Source of the DNA: Rhodococcus sp. P-2
Lineage (GTDB): Bacteria; Actinomycetota; Actinomycetes; Mycobacteriales; Mycobacteriaceae
Direction of reading: 5' to 3'
DNA: 64,000 nt
Assembly: GCF_016598535.1 (NCBI RefSeq)
Contig: NZ_CP066779.1
Span: forward strand, 5,206,053-5,270,052
Of this stretch, positions 10,447 through 55,547 are shown piece after piece (positions within the stretch are counted from its first letter, which is position 1; every line of letters starts with the position of its first letter). The translations under genes were made by a program, and so were the position numbers. The notes below the pieces were generated by a model. The model saw only the letters and a program-made list of their open reading frames with translations. It ran no database searches and was not told the origin of the DNA.

Positions 10447-11192
10447 TGTGTGCTTCTCTCACGCGCTGCCGAGTAGAGGTAGCTGTCCGGAAATCCTTCC
10501 GCAGTCAACACTCGGCCGACGATCACAACGGCCGTCTTCGTGATGCCGGCTGCATGGACAAGTTCGACGATCGTGTTCAAAGTGCCTCGAACAACGATCT
10601 CCTCGGGCCGTGAAGCAAAGGCGACCACCGCCACGGGGCAGTCTTCGCCGTAATTTTCGGCCAACTCGGATGCGATCTGTTCGATGCGATGAGCGCCGAG
10701 GTGAACCACCATCGTGGCGCCGCTGCGGCCCAGGGACCGCAGATCCTCACCCTCCGGCATTGCCGTCGACAAGGTGGAGACACGGGTGAGAACAATGGTC
10801 TGGGAGACGCCTGGAACGGTCAGCTCGCGCCCCAGCGCGGCTGCTGCCGCGGTAAATGCAGGAACTCCGGGAACCATGTCGAAATCGACGCCCGCGGCGT
10901 CCAGACGGCGGGCCTGCTCGGCCACAGCGCTGAAGATCGACGGATCACCGGAATGCAGGCGCGCGACGTCCAGTCCGGCCGAGTGCGCTTCGACAAGGAT
11001 CGCGGTGATCTCGTCCAGGCTCAGGCGAGCGGTATCCACGACCTGTGCGCCGACCGGGCACCACTCGAGCAATTCCGCCGGAACAAGGCTGCCGGCGTAC
11101 AGGCACACGGGGCTCGCGGCGATGATGCGCTGCGCGCGGACAGTGATCAGATCGGCCGCACCGGGACCCGCACCGATGAAATGAACGGTCAT
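10443..11192 (-). CDS. cobM: Precorrin-4 C11-methyltransferase CobM
   Basis: This 249-aa SAM-dependent tetrapyrrole methylase methylates C-11 of precorrin-4. It begins MTVHFIGAGPGAADLITV, followed by LHSGDPSIFSAVAEQ and MVPGVPAFTAAAAALG, the three class motifs. The start ATG overlaps the cobL stop (ATGA at 11189-11192). The stop overlaps the CTG start proposed for cobK. Order cobL-cobM-cobK matches Rv2072c-Rv2070c. Confidence 0.94.
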   Translation of the reverse strand: MTVHFIGAGPGAADLITVRAQRIIAASPVCLYAGSLVPAELLEWCPVGAQVVDTARLSLDEITAILVEAHSAGLDVARLHSGDPSIFSAVAEQARRLDAAGVDFDMVPGVPAFTAAAAALGRELTVPGVSQTIVLTRVSTLSTAMPEGEDLRSLGRSGATMVVHLGAHRIEQIASELAENYGEDCPVAVVAFASRPEEIVVRGTLNTIVELVHAAGITKTAVVIVGRVLTAEGFPDSYLYSAARERSTH

Positions 11193-12472
11193 TGTGAGGA
11201 TTCCTCCGGCGTATCGGTGTCCGCGTCTGCAGACGGCTGACTTTTTGTGACGGACCATTGGACCACCGGAAGTTGCGGGCGCCAAACGTTGAACGTGCCC
11301 AGTGGCTCGGCGCGCTGAACCTGGAAGCGTCGCAGCGTCCCTCCATGTCGGCCCATCCAGCCGAGCAGCAACGATTCGGATTCGGCGGTCACGGCGTTGG
11401 CGACAAGACGTCCACCCACGCTCAGCTGCTCCCAGCACGCATCGAGCATTCCCGGTTGCGTGACGCCGCCGCCGACGAACACCGCGTCAGGACGACGAGC
11501 CTCGTTCGCGAACGCCTCGGGTGCGGTTCCTTTCACCGCCAAGGCAGGCACGCCGAGATTGCGCGCATTGGTGCCGATCTGTGAAACACGGCTCGCAACC
11601 TTTTCGAATGCTGTTGCGGTGCAACGCGGGTGGGTTCTCATCCACTCGATGGCCACAGTTCCCGACCCGCCGCCGACGTCCCAGAGGTGTTCTCCCGGCG
11701 CCGGCGCGAGTGCGCACAACGTCAGCGCACGAATCTCCTGTTTGGTCATCTGACCGTCTCCGACAAACGCTGCATCGGGTAGTCCCGGGATTCGAGTCAG
11801 CCTCAACGGATCATCGGCCGCGATGCACTCGACGGCCAGAACGTTCAACGCGTCCACGTCCTCGTCCGCGTGATCCCACTCGTCCGCAACCGTGACGGTC
11901 CGCGATTCCTCGGCCCCACCCAGCTGGGCCAGCACAGTCAGGATCGATCGACCGAATCCCGCGCCGGACAAGAGACGAGCCACCTCCCCCGGTGTCGCGC
12001 GGCCGTTGCTCAAAACCAGCAGGCGCGCACCACCTGCCACTGCCGCCAACACGGTCGCCGAGTCTCGGTTCACCAGGCTCACGACTTCGATGTCGGCCGA
12101 CGCCCATCCCATTCGCGCGCTCGCCAATGCCACCGACGACGGGTGGGAGATCACTCGCACGTTGTCCACGCCGAGCAGCCGAACCAACGTGACGCCGAGG
12201 CCGTGGAACATCGGGTCACCGCTCGCGAGTACACATACTCGCCGATCGGCGCTCTCGGCGAACATCGACGGCAACGCCGGGATCATCGGAGACGGCCAGG
12301 TCAGCCGGGTGGGCGCACGTCGCGCCCCGAGGTGTGTCGCCGGGACCAAGTCCAACTGTCGCGACGACCCCATCAGGACCTCCGCGCCGAGGATTGCGCC
12401 CTTTGCACTTTCGGACAGCCCGTCCCAGCCGTCGGCACCGATGCCGACGATCACCACCGGGTGTGCGGTCAT
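11189..12472 (-). CDS. cobL: Precorrin-6Y C5,15-methyltransferase (decarboxylating) CobL
   Basis: CobL methylates C-5 and C-15 of dihydro-precorrin-6 and removes the C-12 acetate carboxyl. The 427-aa protein has a CbiE-like methylase half (VVIVGIGADGWDGLSES, then VCVLASGDPMFHGLG) and a CbiT-like Rossmann methyltransferase half (MTKQEIRALTLCALAP, LWDVGGGSGTVAIEWMR). The start is the ATG at 12472 that overlaps the SDR stop (ATGA); longer in-frame versions run into that gene. Confidence 0.94.
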   Translation of the reverse strand: MTAHPVVIVGIGADGWDGLSESAKGAILGAEVLMGSSRQLDLVPATHLGARRAPTRLTWPSPMIPALPSMFAESADRRVCVLASGDPMFHGLGVTLVRLLGVDNVRVISHPSSVALASARMGWASADIEVVSLVNRDSATVLAAVAGGARLLVLSNGRATPGEVARLLSGAGFGRSILTVLAQLGGAEESRTVTVADEWDHADEDVDALNVLAVECIAADDPLRLTRIPGLPDAAFVGDGQMTKQEIRALTLCALAPAPGEHLWDVGGGSGTVAIEWMRTHPRCTATAFEKVASRVSQIGTNARNLGVPALAVKGTAPEAFANEARRPDAVFVGGGVTQPGMLDACWEQLSVGGRLVANAVTAESESLLLGWMGRHGGTLRRFQVQRAEPLGTFNVWRPQLPVVQWSVTKSQPSADADTDTPEESSQ

Positions 12473-45983: not shown

Positions 45984-46000
45984 TCAACGACAGATATTGA

Positions 46001-46006
46001 TACCAT
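46001..46006 (+). promoter_or_regulatory. -10 hexamer TACCAT for leaderless wHTH gene
   Basis: TACCAT ends 6 nt before the ATG at 46013, consistent with its own leaderless transcript. Confidence 0.4.
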
Positions 46007-46012
46007 TGGAAC

Positions 46013-47098
46013 ATGAGCGAATCTGAATCGGAACCGGAACGGTCGATCGACATTTTTCGACGATCGGTTGCCGTCATCGAAGAAAATTTGCCTCCTACCT
46101 GGTCTTTGTCGACGCAGCGCTCCCCCGACCTGTCCGAGGCCCCGCTCCGACTCGACCTCCGCTCCCCTGACGGCGCGGTGGCCAAATTCGGCGTCTACGC
46201 CGCGCACGGTGTCCTGAGCAGCGACGTTCCCGGTATCGCCGATCGCTTCCCCACCGGTCAATCGGGCTTCGTGTGCGCAAAATATCTGTCCGAGCCCGTG
46301 CGCCGGCAGCTCGATTCCCACGCGATCTCGTACGCAGATGCCACGGGCAACGTTTCGTTGACCGCTGATCGACCCGCAGTCTGGGTGCGTGGACGCGGAG
46401 CCGACGCCGACCCGTGGCGGGGACCCGGACGTCCTTCCGGACAGCTGACGGGCGATCCGTCAGCTCGCGTCGTGCGAGCGCTTGCCGATTTCGCGGCGCC
46501 GCTGGCGATCACAGCCTTGGTGCGCCTGGCCGGTGCGTCGACGGGAGCAACCTATCGGGTGGTTCAGACACTGTCGGATCGTGAACTGGTGACCAGGCTC
46601 CCCCGCGGTGGGATCGGCGACGTCCGCTGGCCGAAGATGCTTCGGGAATGGGCAGCTGAAGCCGGCGCCAAAGCGCCGACGCCTCACGGCTTTCACGCGC
46701 CGGACGGTCTGGAGGCTCTCTTCGATCAACTGCGTCAACTCAGCGGTCACATCTATGCCGGTACCGCTTCGGTGGCCGCTGCGCCCTTTGCTCGGTATGC
46801 GCCCACCCGACGTGCTCACTTCCATGCCGACAACGTCGATCAGTTCGCCGACGCTCTCGGCCTCCGGCGAGTGGAATCCGGCGGTGACGTGTGGATCACC
46901 GCTCCCCTCTCACCGTCCGCGTTCGACCGATTGCTCACTCGCGACGGCATTCGCATCGTCGCACCCAGCCAGGCGTTCGCCGATCTGCTGGTCGGTCCGG
47001 ACTCCGACGAGGCGGCAGCCGAGCACCTGCTCACATGGATGATCGAGAACGAATCGCAGTGGCGACGCGCCGCATCCCCTGCTACGGATCGCCCGTAG
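46013..47098 (+). CDS. Winged-helix protein of unknown family, first gene of the SMC cluster
   Basis: This 361-aa protein has three visible parts. Residues about 1-125 form an alpha-beta domain (LRLDLRSPDGAVAKFGVYAAHG, FVCAKYLSEPVRRQL, ISYADATGNVSL) that resembles a PD-(D/E)XK-like fold with the usual E-x-K missing (VYAAHG). Residues about 150-210 are a winged helix (RVVRALADFAAPLAITALVR...STGATYRVVQTLSDRELVTRL). The C-terminal part ends LLTWMIENESQWR, reminiscent of AbiEi-like proteins. It is 33 bp upstream of the DUF2397 gene and may be a regulator or an extra component. No catalytic motif is intact that I can see. Confidence 0.6.
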   Translation: MSESESEPERSIDIFRRSVAVIEENLPPTWSLSTQRSPDLSEAPLRLDLRSPDGAVAKFGVYAAHGVLSSDVPGIADRFPTGQSGFVCAKYLSEPVRRQLDSHAISYADATGNVSLTADRPAVWVRGRGADADPWRGPGRPSGQLTGDPSARVVRALADFAAPLAITALVRLAGASTGATYRVVQTLSDRELVTRLPRGGIGDVRWPKMLREWAAEAGAKAPTPHGFHAPDGLEALFDQLRQLSGHIYAGTASVAAAPFARYAPTRRAHFHADNVDQFADALGLRRVESGGDVWITAPLSPSAFDRLLTRDGIRIVAPSQAFADLLVGPDSDEAAAEHLLTWMIENESQWRRAASPATDRP

Positions 47099-47122
47099 GA
47101 AAAAGAGGGGCCGTCTCTCGCC

Positions 47123-47128
47123 TACCCT
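47123..47128 (+). promoter_or_regulatory. -10 hexamer TACCCT for the JetABC operon
   Basis: TACCCT ends 6 nt before the GTG at 47135 (3 nt before ATG 47132). It suggests that the operon has its own promoter and starts at 47135. Confidence 0.4.
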
Positions 47129-47131
47129 GTC

Positions 47132-48637
47132 ATGGTGGAAGAAACGAGTGCGCCCGATTACGCCGCGTACGCCGACACCAATCGACTGAAGCTGTTTTCG
47201 TTCACGATCGCGGAAAAACGGACCGAGTACCTCTGGGTGCTCCGTGCCTTCGACCATGCTCGCGCCAACTACACAGTGCTGCTGCACGCCGGAACAGTCG
47301 CGCAAATCCTCGAAAAGATCGGTGGCTCGGATCCGGCGGCCGATCTGTCGGCGGCGGAGGTCACTCCCCTGTTGGATCAGCTTCACGTCTGGGAGATCCT
47401 CGAGCGCAGCTACGACGGCACCCGCGCGGCCACGCTGGCCGAGTACCGTAATCGCCACTTCGTCTACCAGTTCGGTCAGGCCGGATATCAGGTCTATCGA
47501 TCAGTCGAGGACGTTCTTGCCGCCCGCCTGGACTCGGCGTCGCTTTCGCGTCTCGCCTTGGCGGATCTGCTCGCAGACATGTCCGAACTTGCCGAAGCCA
47601 ACCGCAGTTCCGACGGCGACCTGATCTTCCGCAAGCTCAAGCGCCTGGACTCGACGCTCTCCGACATGGCTGATCGAGCCGCGCACTTCTATCTGACACT
47701 GGGCGACCTGGTACGTACCACGGAGATCACTCCGCAGGCTTTCCTCACGCACAAGGACGCTCTGCTGACTCACATGCGCGAGTTCAGTTCCGACCTGGCG
47801 CGCTACGCCCCCAAGCTCAAGGAAGCGATCGAGCACGTCGAATCCACCGGTGTCGATCGCATGATCCGCCTCGCCGCGGCCAGTGACGAGCGGGTGTTCG
47901 TCCCGATCACCGAACGTGAAGACGACTGGGCGGCGCGGTGGCGAGGATTGACCGCCTGGTTCGTCTCCGCGGAATCGGGGATCAGCGAGTCCGAACGCCT
48001 CCGTGAGGGCACGATGAGTGCGATCGCCGCGGTTCTCGCCCTCCTTCGCCGCGTCACGGAGACACGTCGCGGCGGCGTCAGCCGCGAGAGCCAGCTCCGG
48101 CACCTCGCCGGCTGGTTTGCCGCCACGCCGTCCGAAGACGCAGCTCATGCTCTGTTCCAGGCAGTATTCGACCTCGGCCGTCCACGCCATCTCTCGATGG
48201 TGCATCCGGACGCCGACATCATTTCTCACTCGCGATCGTGGTGGGAGGCGCCGCCGGTGGAGATCGCACGAACCCTCGCCGAAACCGGCCGTCCGCCCTC
48301 ACCCGGATTGCCGAGCAAGGTCGCCCGCAACGACGGCAGCATCCGCCGACTGCGCGAAGAACAGTTGGCGGCGCAACGTACCCGCAGCGCCGCCGCGCAA
48401 TCTCTCGCGTCGAACGGTGTCTACCAGCGTGAACTCAACGAGCAGGAGACCGAAGTTTTGCTGAGTCTGCTCAATGCAGCATTGACCGCGCGTGTTCCGG
48501 TGGTGGGACGCGTCAAGAGCTCCACCGGTAGCGAGAACGGGGTGAAGCTGACACTGAGTCCCTCGGACGGTTCGACCACCATCAAGACCGCCCGCGGGCG
48601 TATGCATCTCGACGGTATCGAGGTCAGTGTTCGATGA
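47132..48637 (+). CDS. jetA: JetA-like protein (DUF2397/TIGR02677)
   Basis: This 501-aa protein has the DUF2397 layout: an N-terminal FSFTIAEKRTEYLWVLRAFDHA followed by wHTH-like and helical regions. In Wadjet-type systems it is the MukF-like kleisin that links the SMC heads. DUF2397, DUF2398, a large SMC ATPase and DUF2399 form a conserved four-gene neighbourhood; here the first, second and SMC genes are present in order. The start may be the GTG at 47135 instead. The stop overlaps the DUF2398 start (ATGA). Confidence 0.82.
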   Translation: MVEETSAPDYAAYADTNRLKLFSFTIAEKRTEYLWVLRAFDHARANYTVLLHAGTVAQILEKIGGSDPAADLSAAEVTPLLDQLHVWEILERSYDGTRAATLAEYRNRHFVYQFGQAGYQVYRSVEDVLAARLDSASLSRLALADLLADMSELAEANRSSDGDLIFRKLKRLDSTLSDMADRAAHFYLTLGDLVRTTEITPQAFLTHKDALLTHMREFSSDLARYAPKLKEAIEHVESTGVDRMIRLAAASDERVFVPITEREDDWAARWRGLTAWFVSAESGISESERLREGTMSAIAAVLALLRRVTETRRGGVSRESQLRHLAGWFAATPSEDAAHALFQAVFDLGRPRHLSMVHPDADIISHSRSWWEAPPVEIARTLAETGRPPSPGLPSKVARNDGSIRRLREEQLAAQRTRSAAAQSLASNGVYQRELNEQETEVLLSLLNAALTARVPVVGRVKSSTGSENGVKLTLSPSDGSTTIKTARGRMHLDGIEVSVR

Positions 48638-50076
48638 GAGCTCGCGAGATCACGCCCCTTGCCCTCGATTCGTACCAACGCGCGGCGCGCGTCATTCTGT
48701 CCAACCACCTGATCACCTCGACGTATCCGGATCGAATTGCGTTGCCGCTCTTGCGCCGTTGGGCCACCGAGCTGCGTGACGACCTACTGGAACTGTTCGG
48801 CTACCGCCTCGAGGTGACAGAGACCACCGCGCGCCTGTTCACGGTGTCGGATCGACTCAACCCGTCGGCACCGGCCCGGACTGCCTCCGAGCGAACCTTC
48901 GATCGCACGCGCTACGCGTACCTGGCGTTGTGCCTGGCCGCGTTGGGCCGCGCCGGAAACCAGATCACGTTGTCGGAGTTGGCCGATCACGTCGCGGCCG
49001 ACGCCGCGCAGGTGGACGGCGTCGAACTGTCCACCGATCGTGCGTCGGACCGCGACGCGTTCGTCGACGCCGTCGGTTGGCTCGGCGTCAGGGGCGCCAT
49101 CGCCCTGGCCGACGGTGACGCTAACGGCTGGGCGTCCAATCCCGAAGCGGGCGAAGCGCTTTACGACATCGATCGTTCCGTCGTCGTCGCCCTCTTCCGT
49201 CCGCCGCGTGCCCTGCAGCACCTGCACTCCATTCGAGGACTGTTGGCCGCCGAGACCTCGAGCGCCTCTGAGGACGACGGAATTCCCGTGGACGCGAAGG
49301 AGATCGGCCGCCGGGTCCGCCGGGCTCTCGTCGAGCGGCCGGTCGTACTGGCCGGCGAACTCGATCAGCACGAGTTGATCGCGTTGGCGCAGCCCAAGAC
49401 CGCGTCGGAGGTCGAACTCCTGACGGGGTTGGTGGCCGAGCGCCGTGCCGAGGGGATCGCGATGATCGATCCCACCGGTCGCCTCTCCGACGTCCGCTTC
49501 CCGAGTACCGGAACGATCGCCCAGGTAGCGCTACTCCTCGCCGGCGAGATTGCCGACCGCGTACTCGACGTCGACGCTCCGGAGCTGCCGAAACTTCCGA
49601 TCCCGCACGTGTCGGACGATCACCTGATCGAACAACTCGATGCCGCCATCCCTGAGGCCGGGATCTTCGAGGACCTCGCCGACGAGGACGACGACTTCGT
49701 GCTGCCTGCCGGCGAACCGGCCGAGCCCCCGGAACCCGTCACGTACCCGATGATCGACGACGACTGGCTCGCCGACAAGGTCACCGAGTTGGTGGACCAG
49801 TTCGGACGCACGTTCGCAGCGCAATGGCAGGCCGATCACAACGGGCTGCGCAAGCAGGCGCTCGGGTTGCTGCAACGTCTGCGCCTGACGCATGCGGTCG
49901 ACGGCGGCGTACTGGTGTTGCCCGTCCTTGCCCGGTACCGCGACGTCGTGGTCTCCGTACGCGAACGCGATCCTCAGATCGACTTCGCGGTAGACAACTC
50001 CGCACCGGATCCGGTCGACGAATTCGGCCCCGAATCTTCCACCAACGGCGAACTATCAGAGGTAGAGAACGTATGA
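48634..50076 (+). CDS. jetB: JetB-like protein (DUF2398/TIGR02678)
   Basis: This 480-aa protein matches the DUF2398 layout: YQRAARVILSNHLITSTYPDRIALPLLRRWATEL at the N-terminus, tandem winged-helix-like segments, and an acidic C-terminus (about 355-480, with DLADEDDDF). In Wadjet complexes it is the MukE-like KITE dimer that binds the kleisin. It overlaps both neighbours by ATGA, so the three subunits are translated in a fixed ratio. Confidence 0.82.
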   Translation: MRAREITPLALDSYQRAARVILSNHLITSTYPDRIALPLLRRWATELRDDLLELFGYRLEVTETTARLFTVSDRLNPSAPARTASERTFDRTRYAYLALCLAALGRAGNQITLSELADHVAADAAQVDGVELSTDRASDRDAFVDAVGWLGVRGAIALADGDANGWASNPEAGEALYDIDRSVVVALFRPPRALQHLHSIRGLLAAETSSASEDDGIPVDAKEIGRRVRRALVERPVVLAGELDQHELIALAQPKTASEVELLTGLVAERRAEGIAMIDPTGRLSDVRFPSTGTIAQVALLLAGEIADRVLDVDAPELPKLPIPHVSDDHLIEQLDAAIPEAGIFEDLADEDDDFVLPAGEPAEPPEPVTYPMIDDDWLADKVTELVDQFGRTFAAQWQADHNGLRKQALGLLQRLRLTHAVDGGVLVLPVLARYRDVVVSVRERDPQIDFAVDNSAPDPVDEFGPESSTNGELSEVENV

Positions 50077-53000
50077 GCAACGCCCGCTTCCGACCTACTC
50101 GGGCTGGAATCATCAACCTCTGGGATTACCGAGACCAGGAGTTCTCGTTCGCCGACGGTCGACTGGTCCTACGAGGGCCAAACGGATCCGGCAAGACCAA
50201 GGCCCTCGAGGTCTTGTTCCCGTTCGTTTTCGACGGCCGCATCGAACCGCGGCGCCTCAACCCCTTCGCCGGTGAAGAGCGCACGATGAAGTCCAACCTG
50301 CTCTACCGGGGCCAGGACAGCGCGCACTCCTACGTGTGGATGGAGTTCTGCCGCGGCTCCCTCGAAGATCCCGAGTCGGTGACCGTGGGCATCGGCATGC
50401 GTGCAACCCGCACCAACGACAAGGTCACCCGTTGGTACTTCGTCGCCGACGGCCGCGTCGGAGTCGACTTCTCGCTGATCGGCAACGACGATCGCCCTCT
50501 CACCAAGAAGCAGTTGGCCGAACAACTCGGCAGCGATTCCATCACCGACCGTCCCCTCGACTACCGCACCGCGATCGACGCGCGGATGTTCGGTCTCGGT
50601 GTGCAGCGTTACGACCAGCTGATCAACCTCATTCTCACGCTACGCCGACCCCAGCTCGCGAAGAACCTTGATCCGAAGGGCCTTTCGCAGGCGCTCACCG
50701 ACGGCCTCCGTCCGCTCGACGATCAACTCGTCCTCGAAGCTGCGCGTTCGTTCAGCGACATGGAGGAGGTCGGCCGCGCGCTCGAGGGACTCGCGGCCGC
50801 CGATCAGGCAGCACAGAGTTTCATCGGGGTCTACACCAAGTACCTGCGTCAGCAGTCGCGCGGAGAGATCGAACAGGTCAGCACCCGCCTCGCAGCGGTC
50901 ACCAGAGGTGTTGCCGCCATGGACGAGTCGTCGCTCGCCCAGACCCGCAGCCGTGAGGCACGCGCAGCAGCCGAGGAGCGCTTCAACCAGGCCGAACAGG
51001 CACTCGAGAATGCGCGCGCCAATGTCGAAGCGTTGCAACGCTCGAGCGCCTACGAAGGCAAACAGCAGCTCGACGATCTCGCCCAGGCGGTCGCGACGCT
51101 CAAGCTCTCGACCGAGCAGCAGGCAGACAAGTCACGGAAAGCGCAGGCCGCACTGGCGCAGCGCGGCGACGAAGCCGACAAGGCCGCATCGTCGGTCAAG
51201 CGTGCGGCCGAAGCACTCTCGCGCGCCGAGGACGAACTGCAGGCAGCCGCCGAGGACGCCGGCATCGTCTGGACTCCCCTACCCGACGGCTCACGCAGCG
51301 ACCAGATCACGGCAGCCGTCCGTGGACATGCCGAAGAGCGTGACGGGGACGTGCGCGTCGTCCGCGCCGCTCTGGCGACCGTCGAGAAGGCCTCGACCGA
51401 ACGCTCTCGGGCCGAAAACAGCTCGCGCCGTGGACAAGAGCTGCTCGAAGCGTCCAAGGCCGCTGTGCTCGAGGGCGAAGCTGCCGTGGAACTCGCGCGC
51501 AGTCAGTGCGCCAGCGGGCTGCGCGCCTGGTGGACCGATCATTCCTCCTTGTTCTCGGCTGTCGGCGCCGACACATCGCTGTTCGAGGCACTCGACTCAG
51601 CGCTCGCCCAGGTCGGCGACGAGGACGCTCCGGCGTTGTCCGCAGTGCTCGCCGAGCACACCGAGGCAGGCTCCGAGACGCTACGCGAGCGTCGACGCGA
51701 AGCAGAGGCGGAAATCTCGGCATCACACGCCTCGATCGCGGCTCTGAAGGCCGAACGCAAGACCGTCTCGGCGGAACACGACGACGCTCCGCCTGCCTTC
51801 CACGCACGTACCGACAACCGCAGTGCCCTGGGTGGTGCACCGCTGTGGCAGCTGGTGCGCTTCGTCGACTCCGTCGAACCGGACGTGGCCACGGGAATCG
51901 AATCCGCACTCCAGGCGGCAAATCTGCTGGACGGCTGGGTCTGCCCGGACGAGACGATTCCCGAGCACGTCAGTGAGCAGTTCCTGACGGCTCTTCCCGT
52001 CAAGCAGCGCCCGAAGGGACGCACGCTGGCCGACGTCCTCGAGGTCGAAGGCAATGCCGACGTACCCGACGCTCGGGTACAGGACATTCTCGCGTCGATC
52101 AGTCTCGTCGAGGCACCGGGCGACACGGACGCAAGCGTCGCGATCGGCGTCGACGGCCGCTTCTGGCAAGGCGTCTCGCGCGGCCGGCACGTCAAGTCCG
52201 ACGCCGAGTACATCGGCACGACAGCGCGGGCGCGTCGACGCGAAGCTCGGATCACCGAGATCGATGCGGCTCTGGAAGTACTTGCCGCGGCAGTCGATAC
52301 GGCCAAGGCACTGGTAGCGCAGACTACCGAGCAGCTGAGTCGGATCAACTCTGCGGCAAAGGAATTGCCGAAGACAGGTTCGATCCTGCGCGCACTCAAG
52401 ACCGTCACCGAATCCGCCGGAGCACTCCGCACTCGCTCGGAGGCCACGGAAACGGCACAACGCGAACTCGATGCGGCGATCGCCGATCTCGCGGCGAAGG
52501 AAAAGCGACTCCGAGCGACGGCGTCGCAGCACCGGACCCCGCACGTCGGCCGTGAACTCGACTCCCTCGCCGCAGCCATCCGTCATTTCGAGAAGCAGGG
52601 CGAACTGGCACTGCGCTGCCGACGCGAGCATGCCAAGGAAGTCGAACTCGAACGCGAGTCCCGCGACCGACTCGACGAATCACGTGCCAATGCCGAGGAA
52701 TTCGCCGAGGAAGCCGCCATCGCCGAGGAGAGTCTGCTCCAGCAGGTGCAGCGTCTCGAGACACTGCGCGACACCCTCGGTGCGAGCGCCGAGCAGATCG
52801 ATCTGGACCTGGCAAAAGCCCGCGCGAAGATCGAGGAATGCAAGGTCGAGCAGCGTGCAGCGCGAAAGGCGTACGACGCCGCGGTGCTCCAGATCGGCAC
52901 AGCCGAGGGTGCGTACAACACCGCTGTCGAGACGCTTCGGCACACCCTGACCGAAACCCGCAGTGATGCAGAGCGACTCGCACCCTATGCTCGTCCGGAT

Positions 53001-54248
53001 CTACTCGAGTTGTTGGGCGTCAAGGAACATCTGAGCTGGCCGGCAAGTTCGGCGGCGTGGATGAGCCCCGATCAGTTGGTCTACCGCATCCAGAACGAAG
53101 ATCGCAGTGAGGACGCGGCCCACCCGCCGGTCCTGCCCGAAGACGTCGACAAGTTGTACCGAGCGCTCGAGGCTGCGACCTCGGCGGTACGCGTCACCGA
53201 CGGCGCCCGCAAGGCAACCCGCACGGCACTGACCTCGGCGTTGCAGGACTTCGACGCCCAACTCGCAGCGGCCGGACAGGACTACCGTCTGCAGTGGGAT
53301 GCACCGGACGGACTGACCGTCGTACGAGTGCAGGATGATCAGGGCTATTCGTCGATCGGTGAATTCGCAACGCGGATCCACGATGCTCGCGGCGATCAGG
53401 AGCAGTTGCTCACCGAATCCGAACGTCGCATTCTCGAAGATGCTCTGCTGACCGGTTTGGCTCAGCAGATTCACGAGCGCACGGTCGACGCGCGCGAGTT
53501 GATCGCTCAAATGGGCACCGAGATGCGTGAGCGTCGTATGTCCTCGGGCAACACCATCGGCGTTCACTGGGTGCTCGCCGACAATCTCGACGACAGCTCG
53601 CGGGCGATCTCCAAGCTGCTGGATCGCGATGCGTCGGCCCTCGGCGTCGACGAACTGGCCACTCTGCGAGCACATTTCGCGACCCAGATCCGCACCGCCC
53701 GCGCCGCGCATCCCGAGCGTTCCTACCCGGAGATCCTGTCGTCGGCGCTCGACTACCGCCAGTGGCGCGTGTTCTCGTTCACCCTCATCAGCGGTGAGGG
53801 CAAGGAGGACCGGCTGACCGTTGCGCGACACAGCGCACTGTCCGGTGGCGAGCAGTCGGTTTCACTGCACCTTCCGCTCTTCGCCGCGGCGCACGTCATG
53901 CTGGACTCGGCCGACCCGCACGCCCCACGTCTGCTGGCACTGGACGAGGCGTTCGCCGGTGTCGACGACAACGGTCGCAGCGAACTGCTCGGCTTGAGCG
54001 TTCAGTTCGACCTGGATCTCTTCATGACCGGCTACGACCTGTGGATCACGTACGCGGACGTCCCGGGGTGTGCTCACTACGATCTCGCGCACTCCACGGC
54101 CGAGCAGGCAGTCAGCGCCGCGCTGCTGGTGTGGTCGAACGGTGAGCTGCTCGCCGAGCACGACGGAACCGATCTGGCGAGGGCGTTGGGCTCGCCGCTG
54201 CGGCGCCGGGTGCCGACACCAGCCGAAGGTGCGCTGGACTACGCCTAG
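50073..54248 (+). CDS. jetC: JetC-like SMC/MukB-type ATPase (TIGR02680)
   Basis: This 1391-aa protein is the SMC subunit. It has Walker A GPNGSGKT at 35-42, long heptad-rich coiled coils (about 330-560 and 830-1060) around a hinge-like region at about 600-750, and C-terminal signature LSGGEQ (about 1256) with Walker B LLALDEAF (about 1287-1294). It would use ATP to extrude or cleave-trap circular DNA with JetA/JetB. In four-gene systems a JetD (DUF2399) nuclease-like subunit completes the complex; none is found here. The ATG overlaps the jetB stop. Confidence 0.88.
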   Translation: MSNARFRPTRAGIINLWDYRDQEFSFADGRLVLRGPNGSGKTKALEVLFPFVFDGRIEPRRLNPFAGEERTMKSNLLYRGQDSAHSYVWMEFCRGSLEDPESVTVGIGMRATRTNDKVTRWYFVADGRVGVDFSLIGNDDRPLTKKQLAEQLGSDSITDRPLDYRTAIDARMFGLGVQRYDQLINLILTLRRPQLAKNLDPKGLSQALTDGLRPLDDQLVLEAARSFSDMEEVGRALEGLAAADQAAQSFIGVYTKYLRQQSRGEIEQVSTRLAAVTRGVAAMDESSLAQTRSREARAAAEERFNQAEQALENARANVEALQRSSAYEGKQQLDDLAQAVATLKLSTEQQADKSRKAQAALAQRGDEADKAASSVKRAAEALSRAEDELQAAAEDAGIVWTPLPDGSRSDQITAAVRGHAEERDGDVRVVRAALATVEKASTERSRAENSSRRGQELLEASKAAVLEGEAAVELARSQCASGLRAWWTDHSSLFSAVGADTSLFEALDSALAQVGDEDAPALSAVLAEHTEAGSETLRERRREAEAEISASHASIAALKAERKTVSAEHDDAPPAFHARTDNRSALGGAPLWQLVRFVDSVEPDVATGIESALQAANLLDGWVCPDETIPEHVSEQFLTALPVKQRPKGRTLADVLEVEGNADVPDARVQDILASISLVEAPGDTDASVAIGVDGRFWQGVSRGRHVKSDAEYIGTTARARRREARITEIDAALEVLAAAVDTAKALVAQTTEQLSRINSAAKELPKTGSILRALKTVTESAGALRTRSEATETAQRELDAAIADLAAKEKRLRATASQHRTPHVGRELDSLAAAIRHFEKQGELALRCRREHAKEVELERESRDRLDESRANAEEFAEEAAIAEESLLQQVQRLETLRDTLGASAEQIDLDLAKARAKIEECKVEQRAARKAYDAAVLQIGTAEGAYNTAVETLRHTLTETRSDAERLAPYARPDLLELLGVKEHLSWPASSAAWMSPDQLVYRIQNEDRSEDAAHPPVLPEDVDKLYRALEAATSAVRVTDGARKATRTALTSALQDFDAQLAAAGQDYRLQWDAPDGLTVVRVQDDQGYSSIGEFATRIHDARGDQEQLLTESERRILEDALLTGLAQQIHERTVDARELIAQMGTEMRERRMSSGNTIGVHWVLADNLDDSSRAISKLLDRDASALGVDELATLRAHFATQIRTARAAHPERSYPEILSSALDYRQWRVFSFTLISGEGKEDRLTVARHSALSGGEQSVSLHLPLFAAAHVMLDSADPHAPRLLALDEAFAGVDDNGRSELLGLSVQFDLDLFMTGYDLWITYADVPGCAHYDLAHSTAEQAVSAALLVWSNGELLAEHDGTDLARALGSPLRRRVPTPAEGALDYA

Positions 54249-54251
54249 AAA

Positions 54252-54301
54252 CTGCTGTGCGCCTTTATTAACCGCGGGCGGTTAATAAAGGCGCACAGCA
54301 G
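54252..54301. terminator. 24-bp near-perfect palindromic terminator
   Basis: Two 24-nt perfectly complementary arms (54252-54275 and 54278-54301) meet at a 2-nt centre, right after the jetC stop and 4 bp before the mshC stop. It includes an AT-rich block (TTTATTAA). It is the longest hairpin in the window and should terminate both convergent operons. Confidence 0.8.
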
Positions 54302-54305
54302 GGGT

Positions 54306-55547
54306 TCAGCGAAGCGAAATACCCAGCAAAGCGTCGACGGCATCGGCGAACTCGCCGGGTGCCTGCGCGTCGGATCCGCCGCCCTCGATTGCTCGGCGTG
54401 CCCAGCCGTCGAGCGCGTCGAGCGCCTTCGGGGTGTCGAGGTCGTCGGCCAGGTGCTGACGCAACCGTGCGACGGTGTCGGTGGCGGACGGCGCGGAACC
54501 GAGGGCGGCCGCCTCCCGCCACAGCTTCAGACGTGACTGCGCCTCCTCGAGGACCTGTTCGGTCCAGGCGCGATCCTGGCGGTAGTGACCGGAGAGCAGT
54601 CCGAGGCGGATCGCTGCGGGGTCCACCCCTTCGCCGCGCAGCTTGGAGACGAAGACCAGGTTCCCGCGGCTCTTCGACATCTTCTCGCCGTCGAGGCCGA
54701 TCATGCCGGTATGTACGTAGTGCCGCGCGAAACGGCGATCACCCGTTGCCGATTCCGCATGTGCAGCCGAGAACTCGTGGTGCGGGAAGATCAGGTCGCT
54801 GCCGCCGCCCTGGACGTCGAATCCGGAGCCGATGCGATTGAGCGCAATGGCAGCGCATTCGATGTGCCAACCGGGGCGTCCCGGCCCGAAGGGTGAGGGC
54901 CACGAGGGCTCGCCCGGACGCTCGGCACGCCAGACGAGTGCATCGAGCGGATTGCGCTTTCCGACGCGATCGGGATCTCCGCCGCGTTCGGCGAAGAACT
55001 TCTCCATCGTCGCGCGGTCGTACCCCGACTCGTAACCGAACTGCTCGGTCGCGTCGGCGCGGAAGTAGACGTCGGGGAACTCGGCGTCGTCGACGATGTA
55101 TGCGGCGCCGGAGGCCACGAACTTCTCCACCAACTCGACTACTTCGTTCACCGATTCGACGGCGCCGATGTAGTCCTTAGGCGGAAGCACGCGCAGCGCT
55201 TCCATGTCCTCGCGGAAGAGGGCCGTCTCACGCATGCCGAGGACGATCCAGTCCTCGCCGTCGCGGTTGGCGCGCTCGAACAGCGGGTCGTCCACGTCAG
55301 TCACGTTCTGGACGTAGTGAACGTCGTGTCCGGCGTCGCGCCACATGCGGTTCACGAGGTCGAACGTGAGGTACGTGGCCGCGTGGCCGAGGTGGGTGGC
55401 GTCGTACGGGGTGATGCCGCAGACGTACATCGTCGCCTTCTTGCCCGGCGTGACGGGGCGAACCTGACGGTCGGCTGTGTCGTACAGCCGCAACGGCGGC
55501 CCCTGACCGGGAACGGACGGGAGTGCGGTATCGGACCAAGACTGCAT
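54306..55547 (-). CDS. mshC: Cysteine-1D-myo-inosityl glucosaminide ligase MshC
   Basis: MshC joins cysteine to GlcN-Ins, a step in making mycothiol, the main thiol of actinobacteria. The 413-aa protein is a cysteinyl-tRNA-synthetase paralogue with the HIGH-like [11 protein letters not shown] motif, zinc-binding Cys/His ([15 protein letters not shown]) and the KMSKS loop KMSKSRGN. The ATG at 55547 is preceded at 7 nt by a TAGGCT -10 that overlaps the mmpL stop. Confidence 0.95.

Follow-up and report, generated by a model that had tools for sequence, protein, structure and literature searches.

A type II Wadjet operon without its JetD nuclease in Rhodococcus, a candidate MksBEF-like SMC complex

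Introduction

In Wadjet systems, JetABC senses circular DNA, with loop extrusion as the favoured model, and JetD cuts, according to the account given in PMC10586767. The same source relates a suggestion that MukBEF and MksBEF arose from Wadjet; for the MksBEF of Pseudomonas aeruginosa, which has a part in organising and segregating the chromosome, an origin by loss of JetD has been proposed. Here we analyse an operon at 47132–54248 of a 64,000-nucleotide window (the whole stretch of DNA under analysis, contig NZ_CP066779.1, positions 5,206,053–5,270,052) from Rhodococcus sp. P-2, which encodes JetA, JetB and JetC of type II Wadjet and no JetD. We propose with moderate confidence, from sequence comparisons, that these proteins would form an SMC complex of the MksBEF kind, descended from Wadjet and lacking a nuclease, for which a chromosomal role is most likely.

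The operon shares with type II Wadjet the JetA, JetB and JetC families and their gene order, and most JetD-bearing relatives lie at the same chromosomal site; it differs in having no JetD nuclease, so that the defining cutting step is missing. P. aeruginosa MksBEF is likewise a three-subunit SMC–kleisin–KITE operon without a nuclease, with a proposed descent by nuclease loss. It is called MukBEF-like in a source passage that leaves its Wadjet type unstated, whereas the window operon belongs to the type II family, comes from the Actinomycetota, and has inferred losses that can be traced singly. MukBEF, also a nuclease-free three-subunit SMC complex, has the same broad architecture; it apparently replaced Smc-ScpAB in its hosts (PMC10586767), whereas the window genome has a canonical Smc as well (984.6 bits). 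Two other actinobacterial Muk-like SMC systems, M. smegmatis EptC and C. glutamicum MksBEFG, are described as acting on plasmids, and the latter, called type I (PMC12287153), retains the nuclease MksG (PMC10123090).

Family assignment of the operon and absence of JetD

The genes of the operon and the site marker that follows it are:

jetA, 47132–48637, + strand, 501 aa: kleisin, MksF/MukF-like, DUF2397/TIGR02677
jetB, 48634–50076, + strand, 480 aa: KITE protein, MksE/MukE-like, DUF2398/TIGR02678, 4-nt overlap with jetA
jetC, 50073–54248, + strand, 1391 aa: SMC ATPase, MksB/MukB-like, TIGR02680, 4-nt overlap with jetB, Walker A, signature and Walker B motifs intact
jetC–mshC gap, 54249–54305, + strand: 57 bp between convergent stops, with a 24-bp-arm hairpin at 54252–54301
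mshC, 54306–55547, − strand: site marker outside the system, TIGR03447 (9.7e-223)

Profile searches matched JetA to PF09660 DUF2397 (1.1e-139) and TIGR02677 (2.7e-73; 247.3 bits, cut-off 165.85), JetB to PF09661 DUF2398 (1.7e-66) and TIGR02678 (9.4e-40; 136.8 bits, cut-off 124.65), and JetC to TIGR02680 (7.6e-222; 739.6 bits, cut-off 462.85). The top PADLOC models were JetA2 (1.3e-185), JetB2 (1.7e-221) and JetC2 (E = 0). The window region 47132–54248 is therefore JetA, JetB and JetC of type II Wadjet, as a preliminary description of this DNA had it; that description had named the three overlapping genes as the DUF2397, DUF2398 and SMC members and had proposed the hidden Markov model (HMM) check that they pass here. 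The JetC translation contains GPNGSGKT, LSGGEQ and LLALDEAF, which we take to be the Walker A, signature and Walker B motifs, respectively. The longest open reading frame (ORF) for jetC begins at 49824, and the ATG at 50073, overlapping the jetB stop, is the likelier start. The kleisin and KITE roles of JetA and JetB follow PMC10586767. By family assignment, this operon of SMC, kleisin and KITE genes without a nuclease gene is of the MksBEF/MukBEF-like kind.

JetD was sought in four ways. In the whole 6.34-Mb, one-contig genome, neither TIGR02679 (JetD) nor PF09983 (JetD_C, type I) had any match, and the best match to PF09664 had an E-value of 0.62, below the cut-off. An HMM made from 33 JetDs of the order matched none of the window ORFs of at least 40 aa. 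Thus JetA2, JetB2 and JetC2 of type II Wadjet are present, and JetD2 (TIGR02679/DUF3323–DUF2399) is not. JetD is missing from both strands of the window, as the preliminary description stated, and these genome searches found none encoded elsewhere, a possibility that it had raised. JetD-bearing relatives carry jetD (about 1.2 kb) where the window has the 57-bp gap.

Distribution and chromosomal site

Among 28 genomes of the genus, JetC is found in 26 (25 over the cut-off) and JetD in two, both times directly after JetC. In 24 of these 26 genomes, mshC lies no more than about 4.2 kb beyond JetC; in the other two (G018, G020) the contig ends first. Upstream, profile searches confirmed the PAC2 and MFS genes, so the reported site between PAC2/MFS and mshC stands. 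Comparing neighbourhoods across Rhodococcus, a check proposed at the outset, placed the Jet operon mostly between these same genes, and the arrangement is not specific to the strain.

For a wider view, named loci were collected by a JetA-alignment scan with one genome per species, keeping the best 80 of 264 relatives. A locus was evaluable if the JetC end and at least 900 nt beyond it were readable, as they were at 72 of the 80; the eight others (L169, L212, L226, L227, L233, L234, L235, L245) were left out. For genomes beyond the 28 of the genus, JetD was called absent from the locus alone, except in those G genomes that were searched whole. JetD follows JetC at 22 of the 72 loci, which are mostly from Rhodococcus and Nocardia, and is missing at 50. 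The JetD-bearing loci belong to 20 Rhodococcoides fascians-like genomes, R. tibetensis and Rhodococcus sp. SMB37. The JetD-less ones include R. erythropolis, R. qingshengii, R. opacus, R. jostii, R. ruber NBRC, Prescottella equi, Speluncibacter, three Antrihabitans and 15 Nocardia (all the evaluable ones of 20), among others.

mshC or PAC2 is visible at 59 of the 72 loci; among the 22 with JetD, 20 show both, one mshC only and one neither. JetC distances correlate with those of mshC (r = 0.83 over 40 loci; 0.80 over the 19 JetD-less ones) and of PAC2 (r = 0.79 over 49 loci; 0.77 over the 29 JetD-less ones), and in none of these four Mantel tests did any of 2000 permutations reach as high a value. 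The correlation fits inheritance along with the chromosome. The near-universal presence in the genus, mshC as the usual neighbour and the tracking of both flanking genes contradict the earlier view of the element as an accessory insertion. In a plasmid search, at the E-value limits used, JetA and JetC each matched only 7 Streptomyces records, at 56–57% for JetA and 45–46% for JetC, and JetC had no match in phages.

Probable repeated loss of jetD

In a JetC tree of 82 rows (LG+G4, with SH-aLRT supports only), the JetD-bearing rows of the family fall in three separate places among JetD-less rows. If regain is disallowed, the tree requires 16 losses, or 11 when forks under 95 are collapsed. JetD looks ancestral and then lost 11–16 times; we favour loss because the JetD tree and distances parallel those of JetC, because relatives outside the family have the order A-B-C-D, and because two junctions retain traces of the gene.

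As to the first of these points, the JetDs of the family share a group in the tree with JetDs of the G208-like clade and G107, an arrangement broadly repeated among the JetCs. Over 26 rows, JetD distances also follow JetC distances (r = 0.94; 0 of 5000 Mantel permutations). The order A-B-C-D occurs in the G208-like clade and in two of four Streptomyces plasmid loci, namely the two that are annotated. At the junctions, JetD-less G009 shares with R. tibetensis an identical stretch of 26 nt that runs across the jetC stop and through the putative GTG start of jetD. JetD-less L218 retains the jetC–jetD junction found in SMB37 (91% over 23 nt, E 0.01), and by eye an ATG stands at the same distance. 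TIGR02679 had no match in the whole genomes of G009 and G187. G003, with its split JetC, had been omitted from an earlier JetC tree, and G024, the same locus as L197, was omitted from the JetD tree.

All three JetDs tested exceed the Pfam cut-offs for DUF3323 and DUF2399, and for TIGR02679 one is over and two are slightly under the cut-off. The EN and DxD motifs, which are catalytic in TOPRIM domains, are kept in all 54 JetDs of the JetD-tree set.

Maintenance of jetABC

When the window is compared with three JetD-less relatives (G002, G015, G017), the ratio of nonsynonymous to synonymous substitution rates (dN/dS) is 0.033–0.039 for JetA, 0.065–0.076 for JetB and 0.055–0.061 for JetC. Neighbouring genes in the same comparisons gave 0.055–0.062 (metH), 0.030–0.039 (mshC), 0.065–0.088 (MFS) and 0.009–0.017 (PAC2); a metH value against G011 was discarded as a frame artefact. 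JetABC falls within the span of these neighbours, of which PAC2 is lower, and is under purifying selection although JetD has seemingly been lost. A clade of 22 rows in the JetC tree, comprising Nocardia, Antrihabitans and others, is JetD-less throughout. The retention of JetABC in many Rhodococcus and Nocardia species despite apparent repeated loss of JetD suggests that the machine is useful without cutting. The incomplete system considered in the preliminary description is borne out in that JetD has seemingly been lost, and not in the sense of decay, as the dN/dS values of JetABC show.

Several observations weigh against repeated loss followed by maintenance. If regain is allowed on the JetC tree, six label changes suffice, outgroup included, and some JetDs may therefore have been re-acquired. 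The correlation between JetC and JetD distances rests on few deep splits, with 20 of the 26 rows in one fascians-like clade. A third close pair, kyotonense KB10/JCM, has no clear junction footprint. The JetD of SMB37 lies about 0.60 from the six JetDs compared, its JetC only 0.33–0.52 away; this JetD has no settled place in the JetD tree and its flanks are unseen. Its distance and its tree position are why it could be a regain, in which case a hand count gives 7–11 losses. Neither mshC nor PAC2 is visible at 13 of the 72 named loci, which are absent from the flank Mantel tests; they include most of the R. ruber/coprophilus-like group, together with SMB37 and N. vaccinii, for which there is little upstream sequence. 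Because flanks are mostly unseen in the R. ruber/coprophilus-like group, the operon seems to have moved there, or the site differs.

Constraint is also uneven. Five other Jet pairs have dN/dS of 0.034–0.155, and the JetC of R. ruber/R. aetherivorans reaches 0.32. Median values for JetA, JetB and JetC are 0.070, 0.116 and 0.086 in 11 JetD-less pairs versus 0.044, 0.112 and 0.060 in 8 JetD-bearing pairs, so that JetA and JetC are slightly looser without JetD, yet far from neutral. In R. jostii (G003/L176), a frameshift has apparently split JetC. Such a split gene, and the slightly raised dN/dS of some JetD-less lineages, are what a decaying Wadjet remnant on its way out would display. Against this stand the constraint in the window group (dN/dS 0.03–0.08), the uniformly JetD-less clade of 22 rows and the presence of JetC in nearly every genus genome; we regard a remnant as largely refuted by the selection data and give it little credence.

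Class-specific conserved sites number 1/1, 3/3 and 6/6 for JetA, JetB and JetC in the two directions, with no relaxation after loss of JetD. These equal counts give no sequence sign of re-specialisation. Decay of a JetD-docking surface after the loss was considered and dropped, as the comparison of JetD-bearing and JetD-less sites carried no such signal. That JetABC positions are conserved as in JetD-bearing relatives, as if a partner were still bound, would suit a system in which JetABC recruits another genome-encoded nuclease and cutting is restored in trans. This we consider improbable, given that the genome holds neither a type II nor a type I JetD and that the genus loci read show no nuclease candidate in the jetC–mshC interval.

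Predicted role of the complex

In the scenario that we favour, a nuclease-free complex derived from Wadjet, the ancestor of Rhodococcus, Nocardia and their relatives would have had a four-gene type II Wadjet in the order A-B-C-D, mostly between the PAC2/MFS genes and mshC. jetD would then have been deleted repeatedly and jetABC retained, loss being preferred over regain on the comparisons above. JetC with JetA and JetB would still form an ATP-driven, loop-extruding complex that does not cut, like MksBEF and MukBEF, since a motor without JetD would be expected to extrude and not to cleave. Its role would be an accessory one in organising or segregating the chromosome, beside canonical Smc, whose presence in the same genome is why JetABC is seen as an additional SMC complex. 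Near-core presence, inheritance with the flanking genes and purifying selection all point, indirectly, to such a chromosomal role.

The same proteins might instead control plasmids without a nuclease, trapping or extruding them and thereby reducing their copy number or segregation while leaving them uncut. A place in nearly every genome of the genus and co-inheritance with the flanking genes, both unusual for a defence module, argue against this, and all four Jet subunits have been reported as necessary to suppress plasmid transformation. In its favour, circle sensing in Wadjet falls to JetABC and cutting to JetD (PMC10586767), and EptC of M. smegmatis reportedly interferes with the segregation of pAL5000-type plasmids (PMC6135046). 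We judge plasmid control unlikely, though the most serious of the alternatives to a chromosomal role.

Close relatives differ in jetD while sharing the same operon, mostly at one site, and the change can therefore be studied in natural pairs. On a broader view, which we put forward tentatively, the Nocardiaceae might offer a natural replay of the origin proposed for MksBEF and MukBEF, in which a chromosome-fixed four-gene plasmid-cutting SMC system became a nuclease-free, condensin-like complex by about 7 to 16 separate deletions of jetD, some recent enough to leave the junction. If this is true, many of the operons scored as Wadjet II in these bacteria by defence-finding programs would not be defence systems, and Wadjet counts in Actinomycetota may include nuclease-free operons. 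Published tables hold possible examples: a Wadjet_II of R. erythropolis is listed with three proteins only, candidate JetABC (Table 4 of PMC12915292), and one Wadjet of Paenarthrobacter is listed as JetA, JetB and JetC (Table 6 of PMC11719660). Wadjet together with restriction–modification and Eleos or PD-T4-3 is given for 73% of 97 Rhodococcus genomes (PMC10482375). In the accessible passages of the open-licence literature we found no report of JetD loss in type II Wadjet.

The upstream winged-helix gene

One further gene precedes the operon:

X1, 46013–47098, + strand, 361 aa: winged-helix protein (IclR/MarR-like), with a weak AbiEi-type likeness in relatives; probable resident neighbour outside the Jet system

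X1 matches PF09339 (1e-4), and its AlphaFold model has a mean predicted local distance difference test score of 83.6. HTH_IclR is found in 16 of 16 relatives and AbiEi_2 weakly in nine of the 16 (best 0.0021); AbiEi_2 was not reported for the window protein itself. X1 had been described as an added winged-helix gene and, in one version, as a replacement for JetD. X1 shares the strand of jetA and lies 33 bp before it, which invites the idea of a new effector in place of the nuclease. Its distribution, though, is independent of Jet. Of the 28 genus genomes, 26 have some X1 match, which in one case is a fragment; G006 has X1 without Jet, G013 has it about 11 kb from Jet, G010 has Jet without X1 and G008 has Jet with the X1 fragment only. 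In flanks of up to 10 kb, X1 is seen at 17 of 50 JetD-less named loci, unseen at the remaining 33, and seen at 1 of the 22 with JetD; R. tibetensis has X1 and JetD together. This distribution rules X1 out as a Jet component or JetD substitute, and we count an effector role as already refuted and hardly credible. The winged-helix assignment holds, and X1 is best read from its inheritance as a resident neighbour, not a part of Jet.

At the 21 genus loci with X1 close to jetA, the two genes are side by side in nine (the window's group) and 1.4–1.7 kb apart in 12; in the loci read this gap holds a gene of 380–420 aa, and neither Pfam nor NCBIfam gave a match for the one tested. The jetA ATG is preceded, at a distance of 3 nt, by a −10-like box, TACCCT (47123–47132), and another lies a few bases 5′ of the X1 start (46000–46013). 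Both boxes are largely kept in four close relatives; that of jetA reads TACCCT in two and TACGCT in two, and one of these has CTG for ATG. Because such boxes stand just before each start, jetA may have its own leaderless promoter, and X1 and jetA may be separate leaderless transcripts. In G006, which has no JetC match, an ORF at 11638–12660 of L070, between the X1 region and mshC, is TnpB-like on reading its translation.

Jet loci in the wider order

Across the order, TIGR02680 is found in 59 of 219 genomes and TIGR02679 in 50. By HMM, in the sequence at hand, adjacent JetD was also missing from some other JetC clades (G082, G096, G103, G117; G110, G177) and from one of two loci each in G138 and G124. 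Such absences need care, as L156 (G228), outside the family, has after JetC a strongly diverged JetD-like ORF (10792–12312) with no TIGR02679 match and a local HMM E-value of 5.5e-5.

G124, G195 and G242 each have two JetC genes within about 20 kb and only one full-length JetD near. Of these paired JetC genes (G124, contig C37; G195, contig C45; G242, contig C48, L161), both have JetA and JetB in G242, and one is seen to have them in G124.

A JetABC clade at L148–L151 (G096, G103, G117, G124) has no adjacent JetD of its own and carries a conserved gene of about 1010 aa directly after the operon. An alternative effector beside these JetD-less operons was considered and rejected: the downstream gene is AfsR/SARP-like (BTAD, NB-ARC, TPR) in both of the two scanned, of four.

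The hairpin between jetC and mshC

The arms of the hairpin at 54252–54301 pair perfectly over 24 bp on either side of GG, and its fold is much better than those of shuffled sequences (z −8). Its presence after the operon, and mshC as the next gene, had both been noted from the sequence and are confirmed. The hairpin core TTAACCGCNNGCGGTTAA, an 18-bp palindrome, has 19 genomic sites versus 0 for the reversed control. G007 and G010 also carry the core at this junction, though their outer arms differ, and the core perhaps marks a family of two-way terminators.

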